From: an uncultured Erysipelotrichaceae bacterium
Lineage (GTDB): Bacteria > Bacillota_I > Bacilli_A > Erysipelotrichales > Erysipelotrichaceae
Assembly: GCA_944325255.1 (NCBI GenBank)
Contig: CALUZH010000017.1
Span: forward strand, 1 to 38,415
Direction of reading: 5' to 3'
DNA length: 38,415 nt
The notes under the pieces were generated by a model, which saw only the letters and a list, made by a program, of their open reading frames with translations, did not search any database and was not told where the DNA came from. Position 1 is the stretch's first letter, and each line of letters opens with the position of its first letter. A program made the position numbers and the translations under genes. Below are positions 20,279-37,762 of the stretch, piece by piece.

Positions 20279-23200
20279 ACAACAATTGGCAGCTATAAAT
20301 CATCGCGGTCAAAATGTTTTGGTCTTTGCCTCGGCCGGGGGCGGCAAGACCACGGTCTTGGTTAATCGTTTATTGAAGCGCATCGTTGATGACCATATTG
20401 ATATCAGCAATATCTTGGCTTTGACTTTTACCGAAAATGCCGCCTTAAATATGAAAAAAAGGCTTGAAAAAGAGCTGAAGAAGCAAAAGACGGACCCCTT
20501 TATCGAAAAACAGATTGCCGCCCTGCAAACGGCCCAAATATCGACCATCCACGCCTTTTTCCTGGAACTTTTTAAAAGCTACTACTATCTTTTGGACCTA
20601 CCGAAAATGATGGCGGAAAATATCCTTGATGAAGGTCATGCCCAGGCCCTTTTTGATGAGGCCTTCTCAGAGGCTTCTTGTCAATTTTCCGATCTTCCTT
20701 TCTTGGATCAATATCTTAATGCTTCCCTTTTTGCCGATGACAATTTAAAAGCGGCCGTCAAAAAAATAATCAACAAGGCCAGAACCCGCCATGAACCTTT
20801 GGCCTGGCTCAAGCGTATTCAAGATCCCAAAGTAAATAAGCTTGAAGATATCAATACGCTTATTTGGGAATATTATCTTAGTGAACTCAAGGGCCAATTC
20901 AAGATTGCCGCTTTTTATTTACAAAAATTAGCGGCCGTCGATAGTGATCATCAAGAAGATCTTAAAAAGAAATCGGCCTTGATCAATGAACTTTTAAGCC
21001 TTGATGACTATCAGAAATTCTTAGAAAAGTGCTTCGTTTTAATGCGCTCCTTGCCAAATAAAAAAGATGAACTTTTTAAATATTATCGTCAGGAATTAAG
21101 CGATGTCTTTAAAACTATTGCCGAAAAACTGATGACTCCGGCCAATATCCTTAATTCCTATAATGAAGCCGCTTTAATTGCCGATAAACTTATTGCCTTA
21201 AGTATTAAGACCTATGAAATTCTTCAAAAAAAGAAAGAGGATGCCAAAGTTATGGACTTCAATGATTTTGAAATCTATGCTTGGCAAATTTTGCATTGCC
21301 AAAACGGCCGCATTGCCCATAAGCTCCAAAAACAGTATCAAGAAATTATGATTGATGAGTTTCAGGATACCAACGACAGCCAATTTGCCATTCTTAAGTT
21401 AATTTCCAATAACAATCTTTTCATTGTCGGCGATATTAAACAATCCATTTACCGTTTTCGTTATGCCAAACCGGAAATTATGGCCGGCCTTAAAAATGAT
21501 CCGACATATCATAAGATCCATATCCGCAATAATTATCGTTCCGCCCCCCATATCGTCGCTTTCAACAATATCCTTTTTAATAAGATCATGAATCTGAATG
21601 ACCATCTGGTTGATGAAAGCGATATGCAAATTCCTTTTAAAGAAGATGCCGAAGGAAAAAAAGTCATTATGAAATTAGCCTTTGGTGAAGATGAAAAAGC
21701 CTCTAAGGCTAAACTTTTAGCCAATACGGTCTATGAGCTGCACCAAAAGGGTGAAAGTTTCCGCAGCATCTGTATCTTAGTGGAAACCCATGAAGACAAA
21801 AAGCTTATCCGCCAATACTTAAATAATTATCATATCCCTTATTTCATTATCGACAATGCCAGCTACTTTGCTTCTTCAAGTTTGGATGTTATCGCTGCCT
21901 ATTGCCGCTTATTATTGGATAAGGATGATAGATATGCCGCTGTCACCGTCTTATCATCACCCCTATATAATTTAAGCGATGATGAACTTTTAAGATATCG
22001 GGATAATTTTATGGCCTACAAGCCTTTAAAAGATGACCTTTATCAGATGCAAAAAGCGGTCAAAGACAATCGCCTGGGACAAATAGTAGGCAGTATTTTA
22101 AATATTAATGATTACTATCGAAAGTATCTTGATGAAAAAGAAAAAGCCAATGTCGCCTTATTTTTGGAAAATCTCGACCGTTATGGTTTTAATACCCTAA
22201 GTGAACTGGTCGAATATATTGATCAAAGCCGTGATTTAAAGGCAGAAAACGCTTCGACCGTCGCTGAAGATGAAGATGTGGTCAAAGTCATGACCATTCA
22301 TGCTTCCAAGGGCTTGGAATTTGATAATTGCCTAATTTACAGCAGTCATCGCCAGCAGCTTAAAGAATCTTCCGATAATATTAATGTCGATGAAAAGCTG
22401 GGTCTTTGCCTTAGCTATCGTAAAAAAGCCAACGGTTTAGGTCAAAATACCTTAAAAAGAGCGGCCTTTTTAGCCAAAGAAAATGTTGCCGATTTACTCG
22501 AAGACCAAAGACTTTTATATGTTGCTCTTACCCGAGCCAAAAATAATCTCATCATCATTGATGCCTTTAAAAATGCGGATGAGCTTGATAAATGTCGCTT
22601 GCCTTTGGATTTGGGACTCTTTTATGCCCGCAAGGGTTTCACTGCCCTTATTTTAAGTGCCATGGGAAATGATGAACTTTTAAAACTTGAGACCTATCAA
22701 AGTCTTGAGGAATATGAACCACTAAAATATGCATATGCAAAAAAAGAAAAGGAATTGCCGCATGGTGAATATAATATCAAGGCAGTGGAAGATATATCGC
22801 CATCATCACTGGAAGAAGGACGCTTAGAACTGGCATTAGATCAAGGCGCCGCTATGGATTATGGTACGAGGATCCATAGGGTTTTAGAACTTTTGGATTT
22901 ACAAGAAACCGTCAATGAAAATACTATCCTCAATATTGACCAAGACCTTGCGCCTAAGGCTCTTTCATCCATCATGTATTTTGCCCAAAGTCCCTTAATT
23001 CAAGAAGCTTTAAAGGGTAAAATCCTTAAAGAATTTCCTTTTTATCTGAAAGAGGGAAATAAGCTCCTGCATGGCTTTATGGACTTTGTAGCGATTTTAG
23101 AAGATAAGATTATCTTAATTGATTATAAAAGTGATGCTATGAATTGCCCAAAGGAATTTATTGAGCGCTATCAAAACCAGCTTTTAGCTTATCAAGAGGT

Positions 23201-23282
23201 TCTTGAAAAAGTATATCATCTACCGATAGAAAGCTATATCTATGCCCTAAATCTTAAGGAATTTATTAAGATTGATAAATAA
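20265..23282 (+). CDS. addA: AddA helicase-nuclease subunit
   Basis: This 1005-residue UvrD-type helicase carries Walker A 'ASAGGGKTT' with Lys28, motif Ia 'ALTFTENAA', the DEXQ-type motif 'IDEFQDTND', 'GDIKQSIYRFR', 'VMTIHASKGLEFDNCL' and 'LLYVALTRAKNNL'. The C-terminal nuclease domain shows 'HGFMDFVAI', 'LIDYKSDAM' and 'YQNQLLAYQEVL'. It is shorter than the roughly 1230-residue Bacillus enzyme, in line with the reduced AddB. The ATG at 20265 is chosen because GGGAGA precedes it and the protein then starts with the family's 'NEQQLAAI'; upstream codons only shadow addB. Confidence 0.93.
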   Translation: MNFNEQQLAAINHRGQNVLVFASAGGGKTTVLVNRLLKRIVDDHIDISNILALTFTENAALNMKKRLEKELKKQKTDPFIEKQIAALQTAQISTIHAFFLELFKSYYYLLDLPKMMAENILDEGHAQALFDEAFSEASCQFSDLPFLDQYLNASLFADDNLKAAVKKIINKARTRHEPLAWLKRIQDPKVNKLEDINTLIWEYYLSELKGQFKIAAFYLQKLAAVDSDHQEDLKKKSALINELLSLDDYQKFLEKCFVLMRSLPNKKDELFKYYRQELSDVFKTIAEKLMTPANILNSYNEAALIADKLIALSIKTYEILQKKKEDAKVMDFNDFEIYAWQILHCQNGRIAHKLQKQYQEIMIDEFQDTNDSQFAILKLISNNNLFIVGDIKQSIYRFRYAKPEIMAGLKNDPTYHKIHIRNNYRSAPHIVAFNNILFNKIMNLNDHLVDESDMQIPFKEDAEGKKVIMKLAFGEDEKASKAKLLANTVYELHQKGESFRSICILVETHEDKKLIRQYLNNYHIPYFIIDNASYFASSSLDVIAAYCRLLLDKDDRYAAVTVLSSPLYNLSDDELLRYRDNFMAYKPLKDDLYQMQKAVKDNRLGQIVGSILNINDYYRKYLDEKEKANVALFLENLDRYGFNTLSELVEYIDQSRDLKAENASTVAEDEDVVKVMTIHASKGLEFDNCLIYSSHRQQLKESSDNINVDEKLGLCLSYRKKANGLGQNTLKRAAFLAKENVADLLEDQRLLYVALTRAKNNLIIIDAFKNADELDKCRLPLDLGLFYARKGFTALILSAMGNDELLKLETYQSLEEYEPLKYAYAKKEKELPHGEYNIKAVEDISPSSLEEGRLELALDQGAAMDYGTRIHRVLELLDLQETVNENTILNIDQDLAPKALSSIMYFAQSPLIQEALKGKILKEFPFYLKEGNKLLHGFMDFVAILEDKIILIDYKSDAMNCPKEFIERYQNQLLAYQEVLEKVYHLPIESYIYALNLKEFIKIDK

Positions 23283-25898: not shown

Positions 25899-27215
25899 TT
25901 ATTTACCTAAACAGAAATTTTTAAACATATGATCAATCAAGTCTTCCTTATATTCAAGACCCAATATTTCAGCAAGCAAGCTATAAGCTTCCATGATGCC
26001 GTTATAAGTTACATCCAAGGGATAATCATAAATATTATTCTTGGTCTCTTTAATAACGCCAAGGGCCTGTTTCATTAGGGCAATTTGTCTTTCGTTATTT
26101 AAGACATCGGCATCAAGCAAATCCACATCTTCGGCAAAAAGCTTATCGATGGCTTCTTTGAGATCTTCAATATCGCCCTTAGCAGCTGCAATATTAATGC
26201 CTTCATGGGCCTTGATATCCTTTTTATTATAGACGACAAGATGACGCTTATTCTTGGCCACTGCCAATATTTCCGCATCTTCCTTATCTAAATCTTTTGA
26301 CCCGTCCAGCAAGACAATCAAAAAGTCCGCTTCATCAATGGCTTTCTTACTTTTAGCGATACCGATTTGTTCAATCTTGTCATCACTTTCATGAATGCCG
26401 GCCGTATCAATAAGATTGAGTGTTATATTTTTTAATTGAACCTCGCCTTCCACAAGATCTCTTGTCGTTCCGGCAATGTCGGTGACGATGGCCTTATCTT
26501 CGGCAATCAATGCATTTAAAAGGGAACTTTTACCGACATTAGGCTTACCGACAATGACGGTCTTTAGGCCGTTGCGGATGGTCATGAAGCGTTCAGCTTC
26601 ATCAATCATCGTCATAAAACGTTTTTCCCAAGCTGTTAGATAGGGCATAATCTCGGTATCGGTCATCTCTACTTCATCGGTATATTCGGGATAGTCGATA
26701 TTGACTTCAATCATGGCCAAAACATTCTTGATTTCCGTAAAAAGCGGTTGAAGCAGACGTTCAATGCTGCCGTCAATACCCCGCATGGCACTCTTGGCCT
26801 GGAAACGGTTTTTGGCATTGATCATATCATTTACCGCTTCGGCCCCAGCTAAATTAATACGACCGTTAAGGTAGGCCCGGCGGGTAAATTCACCGGGTTC
26901 AGCCAAACGGGCACCGTTAGCCAAAAGTAAGCCCAGTATTTTCCTGGTCACATAGATGCCGCCATGACAATTAATCTCCACCATATCTTCGGCTGTATAG
27001 GATTTAAAGGCCGCAAAATAGGAAATAAGCACTTCATCAAGGCGTTCGTCATTATCATAAATATGCCCATATATTATTGTATTGGGTTCAAGATCCTTAC
27101 GAAGATGGGCCAATTTTTTAATAATCGGCAAGGCATCTTTGCCCGACATGCGGACAATGGCAATTGCCCCCTTGACCAAGGCTGTAGAAATAGCACAAAT
27201 TGTATCTTCAAACAT
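25899..27215 (-). CDS. mnmE: tRNA modification GTPase MnmE
   Basis: This 438-residue GTPase works with MnmG to add a (carboxymethyl)aminomethyl group to U34 of certain tRNAs. The N-terminal folate-binding domain begins 'DTICAISTALVKGAIAIVRMSG'-like and contains 'REFTRRAYLNGR'-type 'GEFTRRAYLNGRINLAGAEA'. The inserted G domain has 'GKPNVGKSSLLNAL' (about 217-230), 'DIAGTTRD' and 'DTAGIHES'. The C-terminus ends 'FCLGK', where the Cys is conserved in the family's C(I/L/V)GK motif. AAGGA lies upstream of the ATG. The usual partner mnmG does not follow; tatD does. Confidence 0.96.
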   Translation of the reverse strand: MFEDTICAISTALVKGAIAIVRMSGKDALPIIKKLAHLRKDLEPNTIIYGHIYDNDERLDEVLISYFAAFKSYTAEDMVEINCHGGIYVTRKILGLLLANGARLAEPGEFTRRAYLNGRINLAGAEAVNDMINAKNRFQAKSAMRGIDGSIERLLQPLFTEIKNVLAMIEVNIDYPEYTDEVEMTDTEIMPYLTAWEKRFMTMIDEAERFMTIRNGLKTVIVGKPNVGKSSLLNALIAEDKAIVTDIAGTTRDLVEGEVQLKNITLNLIDTAGIHESDDKIEQIGIAKSKKAIDEADFLIVLLDGSKDLDKEDAEILAVAKNKRHLVVYNKKDIKAHEGINIAAAKGDIEDLKEAIDKLFAEDVDLLDADVLNNERQIALMKQALGVIKETKNNIYDYPLDVTYNGIMEAYSLLAEILGLEYKEDLIDHMFKNFCLGK

Positions 27216-27253: not shown

Positions 27254-29242
27254 TCAATTCTTTAAATCAAAATCACTAAGCAATAAGACATCCATCGGTG
27301 CACTGGGGTCAGCTAAAAGCCGTTTAGATTGGCGAAGGATGGCATCTTCCACCAAATTGCGGGCCAGACGACCGTTACCGGAAGTGGCATCCTTTTGCAT
27401 TTGGACAATAGTAAAGTAGTCCTGCAAAGGTTTTAAAGCCGACTCTTCAATAATATAATCCTTGCCCTTGGCAATACTCACGGCAATTTGCATTAACTCT
27501 TCACCGGTATAATCATCAAAATGAATAATATTGGCAAAACGTGACTTAAGACCGCTGTTAGCCTTCAAGAAGTCTTCCATTTCCTTGGAATAACCGGCCA
27601 ATATGACAATCAAATCATCCCGGTGGTCCTCCATAGCCTTGACAATCGTATCAATAGCTTCAAGGCCAAAGGAATCGTCTTTACCCCGATAAAGCGAATA
27701 AGCCTCATCGATAAAAAGTACCCCGCCGATGGCACTTTGAATGACATCCATCGTTAAAGGTGCAGTATGGCCGACATACTTGCCGACTAAATCAGCTCTG
27801 GTAACTTCCACCAGTTGTCCCTGTTTTAAAATGCCGCAAGCCTTCATCATCCGGGAAACTAAGCGGGCAATAGTCGTCTTGCCGGTACCGGGATTGCCGG
27901 TAAAGATCATATGCTTGGATACTTCAGCAGTTTTTAGGCCTTTTTGTTTACGAAGCTTAGAGACCTTAATATGATTTTCCAAACTCAAAAGATAGTCTTT
28001 GACCGCCTGCAAGCCGACAATGGCATCCAATTCTTTTTGGATAGCTTCGCGTTCCTTACGATTGTCATCTTCAAAATCCAAGGCAAACTTATTATCCCCG
28101 TTAACAGCGACAATCTTGTCTTCTTCATAAGTCAATGTCAAAGACAAAAGATTATCTAGGCGCAAAGCCAAATCAACCAATTCATCATAAATATTGCGAA
28201 TTATCGGGGCCAAAGAATCAACCCCGTCATTGGGTTCAAAGGAAGCGATGATATGCTCACGCAAAGCATCTTCGATATGAACATCCATTTCTAATTGACT
28301 GGAACACTTCTGCTTAAAAGATAATAATAATTTATCAACGATTTTATTGACCGAATTCTGGTCTAAAATGCCCGTCTTGACCCGATCGCTTACGGCCTCA
28401 ATAAAGCCCCGGCCAAAATAATCGGTAATCTTGGCAATATCATTTTCGCTGATATAAACAAGGGTCTTATTATTGCCGTCAAGATGATCAATCACATCCT
28501 TAGATAATCGGGAAGTGGCTTCTTGCAGCTGGTTAGCCACAAAGACATAACGCTTATTTAAGGTACACTTGCCGCTTATGCTAAGCTCAGCCAGCATCCG
28601 GTTATAAATCGGACTGGCCATTTCGAAATTTTCAATGACAACGATCGGATTTTTACCCTGCAAGGCCACATAGATATCCTGCAAAAACAAAATTTCCTGA
28701 CTTTGGCTTTGATAGCGGGACATATCGATCGTGTTGACTTCATTAGATACCGTCAAACCATATTTTTTTAAAAGCCCGGCCATCGTAGTTACTAAAAGAT
28801 GGCGACCACTGCCGTTAGAACCTGACAAAATAATGGAACTGCGGATTTTTTCCGGGTCACTGCCCACCACATAGGGTCTTCTAAAGGCGATCGTCAAGGC
28901 ATCGCAGGCATCATCTTGGCCAATCACCGAGGTCTTTAATTCGGCATTGATCTTATCAAAGACTTCTTTTGAGGCCTTGCCGTAAACAATCGTCCTTGGT
29001 GAATCAATCTTCACATTAAAGTCTTTTTCAATCTCCTGACGCAGGGAACTGATATCTTTATCCGACAAGGATGTAAGTTTATTCAATTCTTCAATACGCC
29101 GTTCATTTTCTTTAATAATATCCTTTAAGGCACTATCACTTTTATCCAAGACATCCAAGGCATCTTGATAAATGCTCGGACTGCTGCGTCTTTTGCCGAA
29201 AACTTCCGCCATTAATTTTGTCTTCTCGGGATTTTCTTTCAT
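27254..29242 (-). CDS. Two-module AAA+ ATPase, C-terminal CbbX/SpoVK-like
   Basis: This 662-residue protein has a helical N-terminus (about 1-70), a first AAA-like module (about 90-350) and a second one (about 390-655). The second is a clear CbbX/SpoVK-type AAA+ domain: 'IVGLQAVKDYL', Walker A GNPGTGKTT (about 445), the pore-like 'LVGKYVGHT', Walker B 'GVLFIDEAYSLY' (about 508) and sensor 1 'VILAGYSKEM'. The first resembles a Clp-type module ('SVIGQDDACDALTIAFRRP') but its Walker A reads GSNGSGRH, lacking the Lys-Thr pair, so it is probably inactive. CbbX relatives remodel proteins; here the substrate is unknown. It overlaps the upstream gene by 4 bases. Confidence 0.85.
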   Translation of the reverse strand: MKENPEKTKLMAEVFGKRRSSPSIYQDALDVLDKSDSALKDIIKENERRIEELNKLTSLSDKDISSLRQEIEKDFNVKIDSPRTIVYGKASKEVFDKINAELKTSVIGQDDACDALTIAFRRPYVVGSDPEKIRSSIILSGSNGSGRHLLVTTMAGLLKKYGLTVSNEVNTIDMSRYQSQSQEILFLQDIYVALQGKNPIVVIENFEMASPIYNRMLAELSISGKCTLNKRYVFVANQLQEATSRLSKDVIDHLDGNNKTLVYISENDIAKITDYFGRGFIEAVSDRVKTGILDQNSVNKIVDKLLLSFKQKCSSQLEMDVHIEDALREHIIASFEPNDGVDSLAPIIRNIYDELVDLALRLDNLLSLTLTYEEDKIVAVNGDNKFALDFEDDNRKEREAIQKELDAIVGLQAVKDYLLSLENHIKVSKLRKQKGLKTAEVSKHMIFTGNPGTGKTTIARLVSRMMKACGILKQGQLVEVTRADLVGKYVGHTAPLTMDVIQSAIGGVLFIDEAYSLYRGKDDSFGLEAIDTIVKAMEDHRDDLIVILAGYSKEMEDFLKANSGLKSRFANIIHFDDYTGEELMQIAVSIAKGKDYIIEESALKPLQDYFTIVQMQKDATSGNGRLARNLVEDAILRQSKRLLADPSAPMDVLLLSDFDLKN

Positions 29243-29748
29243 TTGCCAATCTCCCTTTTTAATTTCTCATACATTTTTTCGCTAATTAATTCTTTTGAGC
29301 GCTTCAAAGCCTTATATACATAGACTAAGCCATCATAGTAGCCCTTAACATAAAGCGAATTCTTATTGGCTCGGGCATACTTGCCGATTTCATCATCAAC
29401 CTGTCCTTCGGCCAAATAAAGATTGCGGGGATTTTCTTTAGCCTTAAGCAGATACTTGCTCAGAGCATCCCGATGTCCTTCAACATAGTCTTTGGCATTA
29501 TTGTTTCCATAATCAACGCGACTTAAAAGCTGCATAAAACAATCCGAACGATTGTCATAATCATAAACCGACGGAAGTGAAGGTTTTTTTACCAAACGGG
29601 CAGCCCCGACGCTTTTACCGATACCGGCCAAGGAAACTTTCTTTTCCTCTCTGTCGGATGCTTCCTTTTCTTCATAATTTCCTTCATCCTTGGTTACTTC
29701 ATCAAGGAGTGAATAAATATCATCCAGTTTATTCTTGTCCGTCATCAT
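29239..29748 (-). CDS. Conserved-looking protein of unknown function, AAA+ partner
   Basis: I do not recognise this 169-residue protein. Its N-terminal 60 residues are highly charged (runs of Asp, Glu and Lys) and probably disordered. The rest is predicted helical, with 'DCFMQLLSRVDYG' (about 69-81) and 'YYDGLVYVYKALKRSKELI' (about 141-159). It has no signal peptide or membrane segment. It overlaps the XpaC-like gene by 20 bases and the AAA+ gene by 4, so the three are tightly coupled and the product is likely an adaptor or substrate of the ATPase (inference). An ATG one codon later is an equally good start. Confidence 0.7.
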   Translation of the reverse strand: MMTDKNKLDDIYSLLDEVTKDEGNYEEKEASDREEKKVSLAGIGKSVGAARLVKKPSLPSVYDYDNRSDCFMQLLSRVDYGNNNAKDYVEGHRDALSKYLLKAKENPRNLYLAEGQVDDEIGKYARANKNSLYVKGYYDGLVYVYKALKRSKELISEKMYEKLKREIGK

Positions 29749-30682
29749 CAGTTTCTTCCTTCTTAAACGGATTGCCGTTTACCAAACCGTCTTTTTTAAG
29801 CAATGATTGTAAGGTCGTTATATCAGCCGAAAGATTCATATAATCATCTTCATGAATCGATTTATTCATTTCCTTGAGAGCCTCATTAATCAGCACAATT
29901 GTCTTTAAAAGCTGAGTCTCATTATGTTTAAATTCATTGGAATCGGCACTGACCTTACCGAGTTCCTTATAATTTTCCAGGATCTTAGTAAGAATAGGCA
30001 AATAGTAATCATAGAGTTTAGAAAGCCGCTCGGCATCTTCTTCGCCGGCATATAAATCAATTTGTTTTAATAATTTACAAGTCTGGTCCAAGCTATTTTT
30101 AACTTCGGCATTATTGATATCAATATTAAGACCGCTGATTTTATCAATATAGCTTTGAGCCTTGGATACTTCCTTGATCGGTGTAACTGTTTTGGCTTGG
30201 GTACTTTCTTTTACTTCCGTATCATCCGACTTGGCAAAGGCCAACAACAATTCAAGAATTCGCTGATATATATCGCCATAATTATTACGGAACTCGGCTA
30301 AGGAAATGATCAACTCATTATCATAGGTAAGATAAAGATCATCGACTCCCGTATAATTGCCGTTTTTCGTCGTCAGGGCAATACCGTCACATACTGCCAA
30401 TTTCATATTATCCTTATAATAAGCATTTAATTTCTTATCAATGCGATTTAAATCGCGATTGGACATTGAGCGATAACGGCCCCCATCGCCGGACTGACTG
30501 TTGCGAACCCGGGAATAGCTGCGATTATCTTCGCTGCCTGCGCCTTTAAAAAGACCCGAAAAAATAAAAAGCACAATAAAAATCGGCAAAAGTGTAAAAA
30601 GGCCGGATAAAAGCGATCCGCCAAAACCAAAAATCAAAATTAACCAAAAAATGACGGTAAAACCGGAATTATTTCTGTTCAT
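29729..30682 (-). CDS. XpaC-like membrane-anchored protein
   Basis: This 317-residue protein has two N-terminal hydrophobic segments (about 8-26 and 28-46), a Ser/Arg-rich linker, and a soluble helical C-terminal half. That half ('YYLPILTKILENYKEL', 'INEALKEMNKSIHEDDY', 'LQSLLKKDGL') resembles the XpaC family (5-bromo-4-chloroindolyl phosphate hydrolysis protein), whose real role is unknown and which often occurs beside TelA-type toxic-anion-resistance proteins. No TelA gene is present here; an AAA+ gene takes that place. A TATAAT at about 30697 lies 10 bases from the ATG with no Shine-Dalgarno, so the message is almost leaderless. Confidence 0.75.
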   Translation of the reverse strand: MNRNNSGFTVIFWLILIFGFGGSLLSGLFTLLPIFIVLFIFSGLFKGAGSEDNRSYSRVRNSQSGDGGRYRSMSNRDLNRIDKKLNAYYKDNMKLAVCDGIALTTKNGNYTGVDDLYLTYDNELIISLAEFRNNYGDIYQRILELLLAFAKSDDTEVKESTQAKTVTPIKEVSKAQSYIDKISGLNIDINNAEVKNSLDQTCKLLKQIDLYAGEEDAERLSKLYDYYLPILTKILENYKELGKVSADSNEFKHNETQLLKTIVLINEALKEMNKSIHEDDYMNLSADITTLQSLLKKDGLVNGNPFKKEETDDDGQE

Positions 30683-30715
30683 ACTATTAATTATTATACT
30701 AGGGAAGCAAACAAT

Positions 30716-30752
30716 AAAAAAGAGGAAAGCTACTTAAGCTGTTTCCTCTTTT
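30716..30752 (-). terminator. Terminator overlapping the end of the 268-residue gene
   Basis: On the minus strand AAAAGAGGAAACAGC and GCTTTCCTCTTTT pair with a small bulge and are followed by TT. The left arm is made by the last codons (Lys-Glu-Glu-Thr-Ala), so the terminator is built into the coding end. It separates this gene from the XpaC operon. Confidence 0.75.
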
Positions 30753-31540
30753 ACACCGCGGTGCATTTCCGCGATAGATACAAAACGAATACTGTCGGCA
30801 TATTGCTTAGCTTGATTTCTTTGAGCCTTGACATTGCCTTCAAAGCGGGTATTAAGAATATTCTTATCGACCATGAATTGAACATAAACGACCTTTTTGA
30901 TCAAAAACCAACGGCTGATGCATGAACGAATAAACTGTTCACGATTATCACTGTTTTTAATGTCCGTAAAAAGGCTTTCGCCGATAGCTTCCGACAAAGC
31001 CAAACAATGTGCATAAACATCATCGTAATTATTAAAATGACGATGATCAAGTTCCCTTTGAACCTGACCGGCCCGTTTGATAAAAAGTTTGGCAAAGGCG
31101 TCTTTTACTGTTTCCGTATCAGCCATATCAACAGCCACAATATCATTCTTGGCTTCTTGATAAGGACTTGAAGGTTCGGTCAGACAATAGTACATGCCCT
31201 TGGCATAAATATAATCATCGTCTACCAAAAGTAAAGCTTTTTCATTTTCTTCGCGCTTGCCGTAAACGATGTAAGGGCAGATGACAGCCTCATTTTCCAA
31301 TTTGAAAATGTCTTTGTAACGAATAATTTGATTTGAGATCGATTCTTTAGAAACACCTATTTTAAGATTGACAACGATCTTCAAATCATGATCCATCATA
31401 AACAGGGCCTTCAAAGCAGGCGCTTGGTTACTACCTTCGTTTAAGGTATCTAAATAATCTTCTAGATAACCATTAAAATCACAAGCATTAGAACCTTTTC
31501 TAGCATCTTCCAGAGATCCTAAGAGCTCATAAATTCCCAT
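30734..31540 (-). CDS. Protein of unknown function next to the XpaC/AAA+ operon
   Basis: I do not recognise this 268-residue protein. It appears soluble, with a mixed alpha/beta N-terminal half (strands such as 'LKIVVNLKIGV' and 'AVICPYIVYG') and a helical C-terminal half ending in a basic stretch. No catalytic motif stands out. AGGAGG lies upstream of the ATG. It ends in its own terminator and is transcribed separately from, but in the same direction as, the XpaC-like operon. A divergent helical-protein gene begins about 125 bases upstream, and the shared intergenic region has a TTTCTAGAAA palindrome, so joint control is possible. Confidence 0.7.
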   Translation of the reverse strand: MGIYELLGSLEDARKGSNACDFNGYLEDYLDTLNEGSNQAPALKALFMMDHDLKIVVNLKIGVSKESISNQIIRYKDIFKLENEAVICPYIVYGKREENEKALLLVDDDYIYAKGMYYCLTEPSSPYQEAKNDIVAVDMADTETVKDAFAKLFIKRAGQVQRELDHRHFNNYDDVYAHCLALSEAIGESLFTDIKNSDNREQFIRSCISRWFLIKKVVYVQFMVDKNILNTRFEGNVKAQRNQAKQYADSIRFVSIAEMHRGVKEETA

Positions 31541-31567
31541 TTTTGCCTCCTATATAAACATAGGCTT

Positions 31568-31644
31568 ATTATACACTATTTTCTAGAAATTATATAATTT
31601 TTAACATAACTGTTGCGGAAATTTTCTTTACTAAAGCATATAAT
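31568..31644. promoter_or_regulatory. Divergent promoter region with TTTCTAGAAA palindrome
   Basis: A minus-strand TATAAT (31568-31573) faces the 268-residue gene. Plus-strand TATAAT boxes occur at 31593-31598 and 31639-31644 toward the helical-protein gene. A 10-bp perfect palindrome TTTCTAGAAA (31580-31589) sits between them. The -35 boxes are weak. An operator controlling both genes is an inference. Confidence 0.45.
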
Positions 31645-31666
31645 TAAAAAAGGGGGGATAGTAAAA

Positions 31667-32155
31667 ATGGATATTAATAACTTTAATCAAAAAGTCGATC
31701 ATGCCTTAAGACAATTGCAAAAAGAAGCTTTGAAAAAACGTTCCTTGGTCAATGATACAAATCAAAAAATCATTGATGATCTTTTAAATAAAACCCTTAA
31801 CGGCATCAATGAGGTCGTTCAAAAAGTTAATAGTACGACTGATTTGCAAGAAGCCGAAAATCTGGATTTGATTTACGATAAGTGCCTGGCCACAATTGAG
31901 CATAATCAAAAGCGCATTGTTGAGCTTAAAGAAAGAAATACCGATAAGGGACTCAAAGATTTTTTAAATAGCGAAGAAGTACAAAATGCCTATTCCGCCG
32001 TCAAGGATGTGGGTGTGAAAGTTTATGATGACCTTAAAAATTATATGAATAAGCCGGAAACTCAGGAAAAAATAAATGATGTCAAGAAAAAGACCATCGA
32101 TTATGCCCAAAAAGGTCTTGATAAATTGCGGGATATCTTAAAGGTCGAAAAATAA
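31667..32155 (+). CDS. Helical protein of unknown function
   Basis: This 162-residue protein is lysine-rich and appears almost wholly alpha-helical, with likely coiled-coil stretches (about 5-60 and 75-105) and a C-terminal part rich in 'DVKKKTIDYAQKGLDKL'-type amphipathic repeats. No signal peptide or membrane helix is visible. I do not recognise a family. The ATG at 31667 is chosen because a GGGGGG ribosome binding site lies about 9 bases upstream. It is the only plus-strand gene among minus-strand neighbours here and is divergent from the 268-residue gene, so it may belong to the same set. Confidence 0.7.
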   Translation: MDINNFNQKVDHALRQLQKEALKKRSLVNDTNQKIIDDLLNKTLNGINEVVQKVNSTTDLQEAENLDLIYDKCLATIEHNQKRIVELKERNTDKGLKDFLNSEEVQNAYSAVKDVGVKVYDDLKNYMNKPETQEKINDVKKKTIDYAQKGLDKLRDILKVEK

Positions 32156-32230: not shown

Positions 32231-32731
32231 TTATTTTACCCAGTTGACCTTATCCGGATCATAACGGTCAACATCTTCTTTGACCTCATCGGCTACCCCG
32301 AAGGCCACGATGCCCACCGGCAATAAGTTATCCGGAAGTTTAAGTGTTTCCTTTATTAGATCCATCCGCTCCTTGATCGGACCAACGGCGCACCAGCAAG
32401 TGCCTAAGCCTTCTTCATAGGCCTCTAAAAGCATATTCTCGATGGCGGCTCCGCTATGAACATATAAGTAAGCTTCATCATTTAAAATATCACGATCACC
32501 GCTTACTACAATAGCAAAAGCTGCTGTTTTCATCATACTCATAGCTTTTTGAGCAGCAGCTAAAGAATTTAAAACGTCCCGGTTTTCAATAACCGTAAAC
32601 TTCCAAGTTTGCGTATTGCGGGCTGTCGGTGCCAACATAGCAGCCTTCAAGATTTCCTTAATTCTTTCTTCTTGGACTTTTTCATCTTTGAAGGCGCGGA
32701 TGCTGCGTCTTTTTAAGATTGCCTTAAGCAT
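32231..32731 (-). CDS. Nitroreductase-family NAD(P)H-dependent FMN oxidoreductase
   Basis: This 166-residue protein belongs to the nitroreductase family. It opens with 'AILKRRSIRAFKDEKV', the phosphate-binding part of the FMN site, followed by 'ILKAAMLAPTARNTQTWKF' (about 31-49), 'SGAAIENMLLEAYEEGLGTCW' (about 97-117) and 'LPVGIVAFG' (about 141-149). The protein is short, as in many small single-domain members. The ATG at 32731 has GAAGG 8 bases upstream; an upstream codon at 32767 has no better site. It follows jag after a terminator, so it is probably transcribed separately. Substrate unknown. Confidence 0.88.
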   Translation of the reverse strand: MLKAILKRRSIRAFKDEKVQEERIKEILKAAMLAPTARNTQTWKFTVIENRDVLNSLAAAQKAMSMMKTAAFAIVVSGDRDILNDEAYLYVHSGAAIENMLLEAYEEGLGTCWCAVGPIKERMDLIKETLKLPDNLLPVGIVAFGVADEVKEDVDRYDPDKVNWVK

Positions 32732-32785
32732 TATAATTACCTTCTTCCTAAGCCCATTTTCGCGCAATCAAAGCTCAAGGTCAAG

Positions 32786-32811
32786 AAAAAAACCGTCACA
32801 TTGACGGTTTT
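32786..32811 (-). terminator. Terminator of the rpmH-jag operon
   Basis: On the minus strand AAAACCGTCA and TGACGGTTTT pair around a very short loop and are followed by TTT. The left arm overlaps the jag stop codon. It closes the rpmH-rnpA-yidC-jag unit. Confidence 0.85.
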
Positions 32812-33415
32812 AATCAACATATTTGATGATTAGATGGCGCTTGTTGCCTTCGCCTTCCGACTCGGTCTTAATATGTTCACGGTTACTTAAGAATTGATGA
32901 ACCACCTTACGCTCATCATTAGGCATCGGATCTAAGGCCACATCAATATGGCTTCTGACTACTTCCTTGGCAATCCGATTAGCCATACCCCGTACCTTAC
33001 GATAGCGGTCTTCCTTATAATGATTGACATCAACAGTTAAATTGATGCGTTTTTTAAAAGTGTTATTGCAGGCAGCCTTCAAAACCGTAGAGATGGCTCT
33101 AAGTGTCTGCCCGGCCTTGCCGATGATGATGGCATTATTTTCGGCATCTAAGATAATTTTATAATTGTCGTTTTCGACAATAATCTCAATAGCCACTTCC
33201 TGATTTAAATTGGTAAAATAGGCTCCCAAATAATCAAAGATAAAATCCTTGATATCTTGCGGGGTATAAGCTTCAATAGTGACACTGTTGCCGATGCCCA
33301 AGAAGTGCTTATTTTCTTCAAGAACATTATAGGTAATCGCATCAAGCGGGCAATTTTTTTCCTTGGCCACCAAAGCCAGAGCTTCTTCTAAATTTTTCGC
33401 AGTATACTTTTCCAT
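32810..33415 (-). CDS. jag: RNA-binding protein Jag (KhpB)
   Basis: This 201-residue protein has the three Jag parts: an N-terminal Jag_N domain (about 1-50, 'EKYTAKNLEEALALVAKE'), a KH domain with the GxxG-type loop 'IIIGKAGQTLRAIS' (about 94-107), and a C-terminal R3H domain with the RxxxH pair in 'DERKVVHQFL' (about 167-176). KhpB works with KhpA as an RNA chaperone affecting cell elongation and division in related bacteria. It starts 2 bases after the yidC stop, in the conserved rpmH-rnpA-yidC-jag order. Confidence 0.95.
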   Translation of the reverse strand: MEKYTAKNLEEALALVAKEKNCPLDAITYNVLEENKHFLGIGNSVTIEAYTPQDIKDFIFDYLGAYFTNLNQEVAIEIIVENDNYKIILDAENNAIIIGKAGQTLRAISTVLKAACNNTFKKRINLTVDVNHYKEDRYRKVRGMANRIAKEVVRSHIDVALDPMPNDERKVVHQFLSNREHIKTESEGEGNKRHLIIKYVD

Positions 33416-33417
33416 TA

Positions 33418-34290
33418 TTAAGCCTTCTTATTCATTGTTTTCTCAGTAAGTTTATTGACCAAAAGGGTCTTAGCGATCATAACCAAAGAGGAAATGAGGT
33501 AGTAAAGAGACATCGCACTCGGCCAAGAAATCATCAAGATACCAATAAAGATAACCATGGCATACATCATGCCGCCCATCGGATTTTCCGGTTTGTCATA
33601 ACGGCGGTGATGAATTTCCGATTCACGTTTTAATTTTTGTTCCTGCAAAAACATCGGTGTCTTCATCGCAGCGATCTGTGCCACAATCATTAAAGCGAAA
33701 ATAACGACATAGGTATATTGACCGGTTTGGAAACCTTGAAGCGGAGTAACTTCCAAACTTAAACCCATAAATGATGCAGTCGCAATAGCGCTTGAACGTC
33801 TTACGGCATAATAAATAGCGATCAAAATCGGATATTGAATAAATTGGGAAAGAATCGTTCTGAACGGATGAATGTCATGTTTCTTGTAGACATTCTGCAT
33901 TTCTTGAGCAGCCCGCATCCGGGAAGTTTGATCGTCCTTGCCCTCGTATTTCTTTTGAATACGGGTAAGTTCCGGTTGGATAAGCTGCAATTTTAGGGAT
34001 TCCATACTGGAGCGGAAGGTCAAAAGCAGGGCCAAGGCATTAACCAAAATCGTTACTAGGATGATGGCTACCACCACATTGGTGAGCGGCGTCAACCAGT
34101 TGATGAGCTTGGCCAAAGGGAAAACGAAGATGGCCGAAAATAAACCTTCACTGTTCATTATCGATTCAAACGTCGTATCATTGGTAATAAAAATGATATT
34201 GCCGCTATCATCAGTCGGAATGGTACAACCGCTCATCAGAAACAAAAGTCCGACCAGAGTCAGTACCAATATTAATCTTTTTTTGTTCAT
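33418..34290 (-). CDS. yidC: Membrane protein insertase YidC (lipoprotein type)
   Basis: This 290-residue protein inserts proteins into the cytoplasmic membrane alone or with SecYEG. It has a lipoprotein signal with lipobox LMSGC (Cys22), then five membrane segments. Family marks are the amphipathic 'LQLIQPELTRIQKKY' (about 100-115), 'PFRTILSQFIQYPILIAIYYAVR' region (about 150-172), in which the hydrophilic-groove Arg is expected nearby, and the C-terminal 'SWPSAMSLYYLISSLVMI'. I start at the ATG at 34290, which has AGAGG upstream; an ATG at 34308 six codons earlier is less well placed. It follows rnpA by 19 bases. Confidence 0.94.
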   Translation of the reverse strand: MNKKRLILVLTLVGLLFLMSGCTIPTDDSGNIIFITNDTTFESIMNSEGLFSAIFVFPLAKLINWLTPLTNVVVAIILVTILVNALALLLTFRSSMESLKLQLIQPELTRIQKKYEGKDDQTSRMRAAQEMQNVYKKHDIHPFRTILSQFIQYPILIAIYYAVRRSSAIATASFMGLSLEVTPLQGFQTGQYTYVVIFALMIVAQIAAMKTPMFLQEQKLKRESEIHHRRYDKPENPMGGMMYAMVIFIGILMISWPSAMSLYYLISSLVMIAKTLLVNKLTEKTMNKKA

Positions 34291-34309
34291 TAGCTTACCT
34301 CTTAACATA

Positions 34310-34642
34310 CTATCTCATTTTAACTTTTTTAATAGTGTTTTCCAAGTCTTTTTTATTGTCCGCAAAGCTTTGTTTAAGGTAGGGCTGACGGACGATTATA
34401 ATGTAGTCATTATCTTCTTTGGCGAAGTCCACACTCGCCATAAGCATCATTCTTAATTGCCGTTTTATCTTATTACGGACATGGGCCTTGCCCAGCTTCT
34501 TTGACACGCTGATACCGATTCGGGCATTATCACCCTTACGTTTTTGCCGATATATAATATAAGTCGCTGAAGCTACCGAATGTTTTTGGGCAATTATTTC
34601 CTTAAACTCTTCATTTTTACGAATCCGTAAAGCTTTTTTCAT
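34310..34642 (-). CDS. rnpA: Ribonuclease P protein component
   Basis: This 110-residue basic protein binds RNase P RNA and helps it cut the 5' leader from pre-tRNAs. It opens 'ALRIRKNEEFKEII' and has the family signature 'GISVSKKLGKAHVRNKIKRQ' (about 48-67), the RNR-type motif here reading RNKIKRQLR. The length is usual. No strong Shine-Dalgarno is present before the ATG, and a hairpin lies between it and rpmH, which may lower its expression relative to the ribosomal protein. Confidence 0.96.
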   Translation of the reverse strand: MKKALRIRKNEEFKEIIAQKHSVASATYIIYRQKRKGDNARIGISVSKKLGKAHVRNKIKRQLRMMLMASVDFAKEDNDYIIIVRQPYLKQSFADNKKDLENTIKKVKMR

Positions 34643-34656
34643 AATTTAATAAAAAT

Positions 34657-34679
34657 AAAAGTCACCTTCGTGACTTTTT
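34657..34679 (-). terminator. Attenuator-like hairpin between rpmH and rnpA
   Basis: On the minus strand AAAAGTCAC-GAAG-GTGACTTTT forms a perfect 9-bp stem followed by ATTTTT. It starts at the rpmH stop codon. It probably terminates part of the transcripts so that L34 is made in excess over RnpA. Confidence 0.7.
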
Positions 34680-34812
34680 ATGCGGATAACACTTTTCTTC
34701 CCTTAGCCCGACGTCTAGCTAAGACTTTACGTCCGCCTACTGTCTTCATGCGGGCTCTGAAACCGTGGACATTCTGGTGTTTTCTCTTGCTCGGTTGATA
34801 CGTTCTTTTCAT
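34678..34812 (-). CDS. rpmH: 50S ribosomal protein L34
   Basis: This 44-residue, very basic protein starts [18 protein letters not shown] and continues [20 protein letters not shown], the nearly invariant L34 sequence. It lies in the peptidyl-transferase side of the large ribosomal subunit. AAGGTGG precedes the ATG by 6 bases. It is first in the rpmH-rnpA-yidC-jag unit. In most Bacillota dnaA lies just upstream and divergent, but here an unrelated ATPase gene occupies that side. Confidence 0.98.
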
Positions 34813-34931: not shown

Positions 34932-36164
34932 TCAAAATTCTTTATTCTCTTTCATAAACTCAATTATATTTATATGCTCAATTCCATTTCGCTTTTTTAA
35001 TATATAGTCGGTTGTCGCAACATATTTCGGATAATTGTCTTTGATTTTTTCTAATGGTCGATACTCCCTGTCCTCGGTATCTTTGCTTAAAGCCATAGAA
35101 TATGATACCTGAATATAACTATAGTTCAGCTTGGCGTCTCGCAAAATGAAATCACATTCCAGCTTGCCTATCCTTCCAACACTCACCGAGTAATTATGGC
35201 TTCTTGTATATAGATAAACAACATTTTCTAAACTTGGTCCATAATTAAATTGGTTATCGGTATTTAATGCGTAATAAAAACTAAGATCGGATAAATAATA
35301 TTTCTTTTCTCCTTTTATCATCTTTTTGGATTTCATATCAAATCTACGACATTCATAAATTATTTTTGCATCCATTAGAGCTTGGATATACCTAGATACC
35401 GTGGCTTTGCTGATTGAATTTCCTTGCTTATTCAAGGCATCAACTATGCCATTAATACTTATTAGCGAACCATAGTTATTAATAACGAAGTTTCTAACAA
35501 TTTCAAAGGCATTTCTATCTCTGATTTTTACTCGCCTTCTTATATCTTTTTCAAATATCTCTTTAATGACTCCTGAAGTATAAGTTCTCTTATCTTCTGA
35601 GCTGTCAAATTGCACAGATCTCGGAAAACCTCCTTCCATAATAAAGGAATTTAATTCTTGTAAAGGGTTTGTGCTAATGGGTTTTCCAAAGAATTTCTTC
35701 ATACTTTGGTATTCTTCATAATTTAAAGTAAAGATTTCAAACTCAACATATCTACCCGTTAATTTAGTAGATAATTCGCCACTAAGCAAATAAGAGTTTG
35801 AACCGGTTATAAAAATAGAATACTCTTCTTCCAAGCCAAATCCGTTTAAAACCAGTTCAAAACCTCTAACATTTTGAACTTCATCGATAAATAGATATTT
35901 TAGTCCGCCAATTCCTTTCGACTTTTCCATAATCAAGCGTTCAAGTTGATCATCATCAGTGATTTTTCTATATTCTCTTCTATCTAAATCAAGATAGATT
36001 ATATTTTCGGCAGGAACACCCTTCTCTGTCAATTCGTCTGCAATTGTCATCATCAGTGATGATTTCCCGCATCGGCGAACTCCGGTAAGAACTTTTATTA
36101 TATCTGCAGCATCATAAAACCCACGAATCCTTTTTAAATAATTTTCTCGTTTATAAAGTTTCAC
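34932..36164 (-). CDS. AAA ATPase with DUF4143 domain
   Basis: This 410-residue protein has an N-terminal AAA_14-type ATPase with Walker A GVRRCGKSS (about 27-35), Walker B 'KYLFIDEVQNV' (about 91-101) and 'FITGSNSYLLSGELSTKLTGR' (about 115-136), then a C-terminal DUF4143 domain with 'IQVSYSMAL' (about 355-363) near a nuclease-like fold. Such proteins are common in accessory regions; their function is unknown. I choose the GTG at 36164 because AGGAGG lies 7 bases upstream; a reading back to 36215 would start before the TATAAT at 36184-36189. Its codon use looks different from the housekeeping genes, suggesting acquisition. Confidence 0.88.
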   Translation of the reverse strand: MKLYKRENYLKRIRGFYDAADIIKVLTGVRRCGKSSLMMTIADELTEKGVPAENIIYLDLDRREYRKITDDDQLERLIMEKSKGIGGLKYLFIDEVQNVRGFELVLNGFGLEEEYSIFITGSNSYLLSGELSTKLTGRYVEFEIFTLNYEEYQSMKKFFGKPISTNPLQELNSFIMEGGFPRSVQFDSSEDKRTYTSGVIKEIFEKDIRRRVKIRDRNAFEIVRNFVINNYGSLISINGIVDALNKQGNSISKATVSRYIQALMDAKIIYECRRFDMKSKKMIKGEKKYYLSDLSFYYALNTDNQFNYGPSLENVVYLYTRSHNYSVSVGRIGKLECDFILRDAKLNYSYIQVSYSMALSKDTEDREYRPLEKIKDNYPKYVATTDYILKKRNGIEHINIIEFMKENKEF

Positions 36165-36465
36165 GTTAATGCCTCCTACCGGTATTATATCATAGCAAAT
36201 AGGCAAAAATCCCATTTAACGTTACCATTTTTGCTATTTTTTAAATTTTGGTAACGTTAAATGACATTTTTAATCAAACTTACTTCTCAGAATCTGATTA
36301 CTTTTAAATACAGATGATAAATTTTTTAATATTTATTTCAGCTTCTTTTATACTTTAAGTTCGCTTATTTGGTCATTCATAGTAACTTAAATCGATCAGT
36401 CGATTCGTCTTTAGGTTTTGTGCATAATTATGTTATAACAATAGACAAAAGAAGAAGGCAGCGAT
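36165..36465. other. Gene-free AT-rich stretch with promoter elements
   Basis: It holds the ATPase ribosome binding site, a minus-strand TATAAT (36184-36189) and the 15-bp inverted repeat. From 36264 to 36465 it is AT-rich with no supported gene. A single DnaA-box-like TGTGCATAA (36419-36427) and a TATAAC near 36434 for the antitoxin remnant are the only other signals I see. Confidence 0.5.
36213..36263. repeat. 15-bp perfect inverted repeat upstream of the DUF4143 ATPase gene
   Basis: CATTTAACGTTACCA (36213-36227) and TGGTAACGTTAAATG (36249-36263) are perfect complements separated by 21 bases. Each arm contains the self-complementary TAACGTTA. It lies just upstream of the expected -35 region of the ATPase gene, so it may be a two-site operator; a fold in RNA is also possible. 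Confidence 0.7.
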
Positions 36466-36811: not shown

Positions 36812-37762
36812 ATGTCGAATATTCCAACCACTAAATTTACTTCTGTCAGTACAAAACCTGATGTGGTAAAAACGAAAGAATTTGAAGTGCAAAATATGAT
36901 ATATACTATTAGGAATCAGCAGGTTATGCTCGATTTTGATTTGGCACGTATATATAACTATGAAGTAAAAGCTCTCAATCAGCAGGTGAAGCGAAATATC
37001 GGTAGATTCCCAGAAGATTTTATGTTTCAGTTAACTAGCGAAGAAATTGCTGCTGTGAAGTCACAAATTGTGACTTCATCTGATAGTACATTTTTCAACG
37101 GTCAAGCTGGAGGCCGTCGTAAACCTCCGTATGCGTTTACTGAGCAAGGTATTTATATGCTTGCAACGGTACTAAGAGGACCTGTTGCAGAACAACAAAC
37201 AATCTTTATCATGAGAGCATTTCGTGAAATGAGAAGGTTTGTTTCAAATAATGCACTTATGTTTGAACAAATAAGGAATATTGAACTTCGTCAACTTGAT
37301 TATGAGAAAAGAACAGATGAAAAACTTGATGAAATATTCCAGTATATAACTGATCATGAGGAATCGACTCAAAAAATCTTTTTTGATGGACAAATATATG
37401 ATGCTTTCAGTTTGATCTCTGGACTGATTCAGAAAGCAACCAAGGAAATCATTCTTATTGATGGATATGTTGATACAGGTACGCTAGATTTATTAAGTAA
37501 AAAACAACAAGGTGTTTCTGTTGAAATCTATACATTCAAGAATACCTGTAGGCTAACTAATCTAGAAATCACTACATTCAATCGACAATATCCAAATCTT
37601 GATATCAAATATATGAACAATTTTCATGATCGTTTTCTGATTTTGGATGGTTCTATAGGATACCATATCGGTGCATCTATCAAAGACGCAGGAAAGAAGA
37701 GTTTTGCTATTACGCTTCTGCAAGATCAACAAACAATTCAAGATATAATCAGTCGTTTATAA
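36812..37762 (+). CDS. ORF6N-domain protein with phospholipase-D-like C-terminus
   Basis: This 316-residue protein has an N-terminal ORF6N (KilA-N-related) DNA-binding domain (about 27-120) with 'VMLDFDLARIYNYEVKALNQ', 'RFPEDFMFQLTSEE' and 'PYAFTEQGIYMLATVL'. A coiled-coil-like link (about 140-185) leads to a C-terminal part (about 200-316) with 'IILIDGYVDTGTLDLL' and 'NFHDRFLILDG...YHIGAS', which resembles one half of a phospholipase-D-like fold. The HxK(x4)D motif here reads HDRFLILD (HxR(x4)D). ORF6N proteins are typical of phages and mobile islands. Role unknown; antirepressor-like regulation or nucleic-acid processing are both possible. Confidence 0.8.
   Translation: MSNIPTTKFTSVSTKPDVVKTKEFEVQNMIYTIRNQQVMLDFDLARIYNYEVKALNQQVKRNIGRFPEDFMFQLTSEEIAAVKSQIVTSSDSTFFNGQAGGRRKPPYAFTEQGIYMLATVLRGPVAEQQTIFIMRAFREMRRFVSNNALMFEQIRNIELRQLDYEKRTDEKLDEIFQYITDHEESTQKIFFDGQIYDAFSLISGLIQKATKEIILIDGYVDTGTLDLLSKKQQGVSVEIYTFKNTCRLTNLEITTFNRQYPNLDIKYMNNFHDRFLILDGSIGYHIGASIKDAGKKSFAITLLQDQQTIQDIISRL
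37056..37078. repeat. 23-bp perfect palindrome inside the ORF6N gene
   Basis: TGAAGTCACAA and TTGTGACTTCA flank a single base. The palindrome encodes part of 'VKSQIVTSS', a segment that is fairly conserved in ORF6N proteins. The same TGTGACTTCA string occurs in the gene's leader at 36773-36782. Confidence 0.6.

Follow-up and report, generated by a model that had tools for sequence, protein, structure and literature searches.

The 38,415-nucleotide contig CALUZH010000017.1 of an uncultured Erysipelotrichaceae bacterium (assembly GCA_944325255.1; hereafter the window) carries, between jag and mnmE, three minus-strand genes for a long XpaC-like protein (XpaC-L), a 169-residue protein (p169) and a two-module AAA+ protein. 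We propose, with about even confidence, that their products constitute a membrane-docked AAA+ chaperone dedicated to an XpaC–TelA envelope-stress module. The three genes lie in a single overlapping operon, as a preliminary description of this DNA had stated, with overlaps of 20 bp between XpaC-L and p169 and 4 bp between p169 and AAA+; all the open reading frames (ORFs) that it listed were recovered at the same positions.

Dozens of genomes carry the three core genes together, more than chance would give. Profiles of the AAA+ N-terminal half, full-type TelA, p169 and XpaC-L were compared with 157 genomes of the window's order, giving 59 carriers of AAA+, 64 of full-type TelA, 37 of p169 and 62 of XpaC-L. 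The AAA+ N-half threshold was at least 135 bits; bar one split-gene fragment, everything else scored below 50 and consisted mostly of genuine Clp proteins. Seeds for the p169 and XpaC-L profiles came partly from these 157 genomes, and most matches lie in non-seed genomes. Full-type TelA is encoded by 58 of the 59 AAA+ genomes versus 6 of the 98 others (p=7.8e-35), XpaC-L by 57/59 versus 5/98 (p=3.2e-34), and p169 by 33/59 versus 4/98. At genus level (69 genera), TelA accompanies AAA+ in 23/23 genera and is found in 2/46 of those without it (p=2.5e-16). Where both are present, AAA+ adjoins XpaC-L in 49 of 57 genomes.

The window genome itself (1.4 Mb, 98.8% complete) belongs to a wider set of carriers. 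Near carriers with names include Erysipelotrichaceae metagenome-assembled genomes (MAGs) and Lactimicrobium massiliense, while distant ones are labelled Lachnospiraceae, Oscillospiraceae/Ruminococcaceae and other Clostridia, many from rumen or gut. TelA is present in 17 of the 18 named-collection genomes found by the AAA+ search and in 14/14 of those from varied families (L080-L095); its base rate is 19/295 in a phylum sample not covering Lachnospiraceae. In these named-collection carriers TelA is mostly unlinked, and in many of them it lies beside an XpaC-type gene with AAA+ alone elsewhere.

The AAA+ protein begins with a coiled N-terminus (residues 1-85), followed by a Clp-D2-like pseudo-ATPase domain (about 88-385) and a SpoVK/CbbX/EccA-type domain (398-657). 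The two-module architecture recognised in the preliminary description is borne out by Pfam matches in the C half (AAA at 445-576, plus AAA_lid_6) and a Clp D2 profile match in the N half. The latter aligns with ClpB/ClpC at about 1e-21 by profile, and with Hsp104 at 1e-7 by single sequence, across both the large and small AAA subdomains of Clp D2. HMMER matched two pieces and left unaligned the segment separating them, which in Clp proteins holds the pore loop. The N-half nucleotide-binding motifs are degenerate (Walker A GSNGSGRH and Walker B VVIENFE in the window): in the family pattern GxxGxGRH the lysine is retained in 7/25 relatives and the following Ser/Thr in 0/25, and in the ENxE-like Walker B the catalytic Glu is found in 0/25, with N, H, G or K at the second position in 25/25. 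Read from sequence, the N half belongs to the Clp/Hsp100 D2 domains and has decayed as an ATPase throughout the family.

The C half has the opposite character. Its Walker motifs (GNPGTGKT and LFIDEA) are intact, with K, D and E invariant in 14/14 relatives, as are the sensor-1 GY signature of the SpoVK/CbbX/EccA clade (as LAGY) and both arginines of GNGRxxRN, the latter providing a second arginine finger at sensor-2. Overall, the ATPase motifs and the pore loop (LVGKYVGHTA) are invariant or nearly so across the 14 relatives. N562 and R568 (NxGLxSRF), the Asn ahead of the SRF finger and the finger itself, are invariant as well; this criterion was matched by motif, six residues being counted here against four in PMC10659427. 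Comparison with structures places the C half close to CbbX (E 3e-60) and EccA1 (E 4e-55), and with a SpoVK model (E 1e-92), whereas it falls below the curated equivalog cut-offs for SpoVK (TIGR02881, 309.8 against 422.95 bits), CbbX (TIGR02880, 242.5 against 459.25 bits) and EccA (TIGR03922, 256 against 466.65 bits). On these motifs, the C half is an intact ATPase of the SpoVK/CbbX/EccA type.

An 830-residue protein (G016:C52, L056:8280-10772) with two consecutive SpoVK/CbbX-type domains represents another architecture of this clade. Proteins of 1,128-1,213 residues from Paraclostridium, Lysinibacillus, Sporanaerobium and Terrisporobacter (L096:2052-5648, L097:7812-11453, L100:7965-11351 and L118:7992-11609) match the AAA+ protein at 32-34% and probably contain several AAA+ domains per chain.

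XpaC-L starts with a hydrophobic hairpin; an additional alpha/beta domain (about 75-151) follows, and the C-terminal part is a helical XpaC domain (170-297). The window protein scores 29.7 bits against PF10112, at a gathering cut-off of 29.8, and E<0.01 is reached by 17 of 21 family members. A fold search returned no PDB match at E<=0.001; the four-helix bundle of plant Rx-CC can be superposed on the helical domain with a template modelling (TM) score of 0.71 (target length) and 3.1 A, a lead only, at E about 1. Profile comparisons revealed no homology between XpaC-L and either TelA or p169. p169 consists of a disordered N-terminus and a helical domain (66-167) modelled by AlphaFold2 (AF2) with a predicted local distance difference test (pLDDT) mostly above 90; it has no Pfam family and no PDB match at E<=0.001. 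It is not strain-restricted and stands beside an XpaC-L in all 37 genomes that have it, a count that includes the second XpaC-L copy of G091, 23 bp from p169, the better-scoring copy being non-adjacent. The refuting condition set in the preliminary description, restriction to this strain or occurrence apart from the AAA+ and XpaC genes, therefore does not hold for the core. p169 adjoins AAA+ in 27 of the 33 genomes with both. It is optional, since it is missing from 26 of the 59 AAA+ genomes, in most of which XpaC abuts AAA+.

The window genome encodes TelA on another contig (G000:C11:3087-4064, E 1.5e-122), and TelA lies within 3.5 kb of AAA+ in 21 of the 58 genomes with both, in many relatives directly downstream. 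The earlier suggestion that the ATPase takes the place of TelA as partner of XpaC is therefore rejected. The module is at its most complete in an Erysipelotrichaceae MAG (L082:6453-13322), as a run of seven genes: XpaC-L, p169, AAA+, a short XpaC, TelA, a LemA-like gene and TPM. L046 and L047 share this order, and the Pfam assignments were made on the equivalent genes of L046. XpaC and TelA are adjacent in these three loci and in L050, and sit on separate contigs in the window genome; G011 and G025 have the set divided among separate loci. A relative of TelA was not found among solved structures. The preliminary description had also envisaged a stress-response or envelope-remodelling machine. 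That part of it stands insofar as a membrane protein, a small protein and an ATPase form a conserved unit whose company of XpaC, TelA, LemA-like and TPM genes points to envelope stress; the substitution for TelA and the five-gene membership do not.

Work on the individual components is consistent with such a role. The xpaC-yaaN(telA) pair belongs to the core sigma-W regulon of B. subtilis (PMC3498285), lmo1966-1967 of Listeria is induced by a bacteriocin (PMC12791056), and xpaC rises in an Enterococcus liaR mutant (PMC10269926). Induction of the XpaC–TelA pair by envelope stress is documented for Bacillus and Listeria only. A telA-homologue mutant was 4-fold more sensitive to nisin and 2-fold more sensitive to tellurite, according to earlier work cited in PMC12791056. 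Members of the SpoVK/CbbX/EccA clade, for which sensor-1 GY is a signature criterion, are described in PMC10659427 as dedicated chaperones with narrow clients and variable N-terminal recruiting domains, several of them engaged in envelope work.

These features suggest how the system could operate. By analogy with CbbX and SpoVK, the AAA+ protein would assemble as a ring, in which the C-terminal domain would power ATP-driven work through its conserved pore loop, and the N-terminal Clp-D2-like domain, its ATPase motifs lost, would most likely serve as a docking or ring-stabilising platform. The hydrophobic hairpin of XpaC-L could tether this ring to the cytoplasmic membrane, and p169, where present, may bridge components or present substrate. 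The client would most likely be TelA or an XpaC–TelA assembly, remodelled or activated at the membrane under envelope attack. Sub-membrane structures built by TelA have been proposed (PMC7824862). With XpaC, TelA might be a sub-membrane scaffold or polymer guarding the envelope, on which the AAA+ protein acts as a dedicated remodeller following the logic of Vps4 on ESCRT-III, the whole being a bacterial ATP-driven machine for remodelling under membrane stress with the dead Clp ring as adaptor; we consider this picture rather unlikely.

Several observations weigh against a chaperone dedicated to XpaC–TelA. TelA is not within 3.5 kb of AAA+ in 37 of the 58 genomes, the window's own included. One AAA+ genome (G135, 98% complete) has no detected TelA, and G114, G091 and G118 have XpaC-L, p169 and TelA with AAA+ undetected; in G114, which is 99% complete, p169 is accompanied by two tandem XpaC-L genes (L187:7861-10161). 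Because the sampled genomes are related, the p-values overstate independence and should not be read as probabilities for lineages that evolved independently. TelA functions in other bacteria in the absence of this AAA+ protein, B. subtilis and Listeria having just the xpaC-telA pair. The chaperone might instead be dedicated to a cell-wall or lipid biosynthetic enzyme, with XpaC-L recruiting it to the membrane and TelA contributing alongside it to the same stress response. We hold this only as a tentative possibility: SpoVK activates MurG and EccA1 affects mycolic-acid enzymes, according to PMC10659427, and AAA+ is far more often adjacent to XpaC-L (49/57) than to TelA (21/58), but a recurrent cell-wall enzyme neighbour was not recognised in the loci inspected, and at genome level the partner that tracks AAA+ is TelA.

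Shared descent combined with general envelope complexity, under which AAA+, XpaC-L and TelA would serve separate housekeeping or stress functions and happen to be kept together, draws on the close relationship of many sampled genomes and on TelA being unlinked in most of them. It seems to us quite improbable given that the association persists among genera, that AAA+ in a second family is confined to scattered genera (g43, g74 and g76), each with TelA, and that AAA+ and XpaC-L are so regularly adjacent. Least probable, and very unlikely in our view, is a biological-conflict module excluding phages or plasmids in the manner of Ter systems, whose sub-membrane structural components include TelA in PMC7824862, with a proposed role against phage or xenobiotics. 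PADLOC returned generic AAA matches only and no defence family, so assignment as a defence system is rejected; the annotated loci show ordinary neighbours, and a defence-island context was not seen in them. The AAA+ N half occurs on 1 of 72,556 plasmid and 1 of 50,697 phage records, each a weak match, and a strain-specific island or an origin on a plasmid or phage is likewise rejected.

The remaining genes between jag and mnmE are not part of the core (Table 1), and the preliminary view of all five poorly characterized genes as one system is rejected on the distributions of p268, p180 and the nitroreductase. p268, a well-conserved family in the window's bacterial family with no Pfam, NCBIfam or PDB match, is found in 71 of the 157 genomes, 33 of them without AAA+, and stands beside (upstream of) XpaC-L in 18/40; being widespread without the module, it is not part of the core. 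In the window, 51 bp separate p268 from XpaC-L. Weak homologues of p180 divergent from XpaC-L occur only in L040 (G003) and L077, making three loci in total, and a nitroreductase homologue was not found at the relatives' loci tested. For p180, ATG 31667, preceded by a G-rich stretch that is a candidate ribosome site, is a more likely start than TTG 31613.

Table 1. Features in and around the jag–mnmE interval of the window
Feature	Position	Strand	Description
mnmE	25899..27215	-	Probably cotranscribed with AAA+; outside the system
AAA+ protein	27254..29242	-	662 residues; N-terminal pseudo-ATPase half and C-terminal ATPase half
p169	29239..29748	-	Small protein, candidate adaptor
XpaC-L	29729..30682	-	Long XpaC-like protein, 317 residues
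p268	30734..31540	-	Conserved protein, family not assigned; facultative neighbour
p180	31667..32155	+	Helical, 162 residues from ATG 31667; divergent; facultative
Nitroreductase	32231..32767	-	PF00881, 7e-29
Intrinsic-terminator-like hairpin	32789..32811	-	10 pairs and T tail; consensus match only; directly 3' of jag
jag	32810..33415	-	Pfam Jag_N, KH, R3H
yidC	33418..34308	-	
rnpA	34310..34642	-	
rpmH	34678..34812	-	

In the window, the minus strand carries rpmH, rnpA, yidC and jag one after another, with mnmE further along on the same strand beyond the nitroreductase, p180, p268, XpaC-L, p169 and AAA+ genes. The hairpin after jag, recognised by consensus match only, splits the rpmH–jag operon from the downstream genes. 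The 38 bp that separate the AAA+ stop codon from mnmE contain no terminator-like site, so the two genes may share a transcript, yet mnmE is no part of the system. AAA+ is immediately upstream of mnmE in G001 and G003, a single small opposing ORF intervenes in L077, and the order rnpA-yidC-jag, module, mnmE is retained in G019; in the remaining relatives examined, neither jag nor mnmE was seen beside the module. The insertion site is thus lineage-specific and common to near relatives only, and the idea that the insertion has a meaning of its own is rejected.

Elsewhere in the window, an AAA_14/DUF4143 ATPase (34932-36215) occupies the position just upstream of rpmH in which one might look for dnaA, and a phage antirepressor-type ORF6N-domain gene (36812-37762; Pfam 1e-34) is found near rpmH. 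An AddB/AddA-like pair (17777-23282) encodes a PD-(D/E)XK nuclease and a UvrD helicase; given a 173-bp overlap between the two ORFs, the true start of the second is probably further downstream.

Studies of tolerance to nisin, daptomycin-like peptides and tellurite repeatedly come upon TelA and XpaC; a dedicated AAA+ partner whose presence follows that of TelA in gut Bacillota could provide a testable handle on TelA function. Our literature search turned up neither an AAA+ partner described for XpaC/TelA nor a fusion of a Clp-D2 pseudo-ATPase to a SpoVK-type domain, although the linkage may have been mentioned before.

The module can be compared with four known systems. It has TelA in common with the Ter (tellurite/TerD/TerF) stress systems, from which it differs in that no TerD/TerF-type gene was recognised beside it, a genome-wide search for such genes not having been made. 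Like the Bacillus/Listeria XpaC–TelA (yaaN) pair, for which the literature found describes no AAA+ partner, the window genome combines an XpaC-like C-terminal domain, just short of the PF10112 cut-off, with a full TelA (PF05816); unlike that pair, its XpaC-L has an extra alpha/beta domain and an AAA+ partner, and its TelA is on another contig. The N half resembles the D2 domain of Clp/Hsp100 proteins (ClpB, ClpC and Hsp104) in being alignable over the large and small AAA subdomains, whereas the protein has neither D1 nor a known Clp N-domain, has lost the catalytic Glu and leaves the Clp pore-loop region unaligned. With the SpoVK/CbbX/EccA clade, the C half shares the GY sensor-1, the Asn before the SRF finger, the sensor-2 Arg and the pore loop. 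The window protein differs from SpoVK, CbbX and EccA proper in scoring below all three equivalog cut-offs, in an N-terminal degenerate Clp-D2 domain that is not among the tetratricopeptide repeat (TPR), beta-helix, beta-prism, helicase and short SpoVK N-terminal domains (NTD) listed in the text of PMC10659427, and in its linkage to XpaC and TelA.

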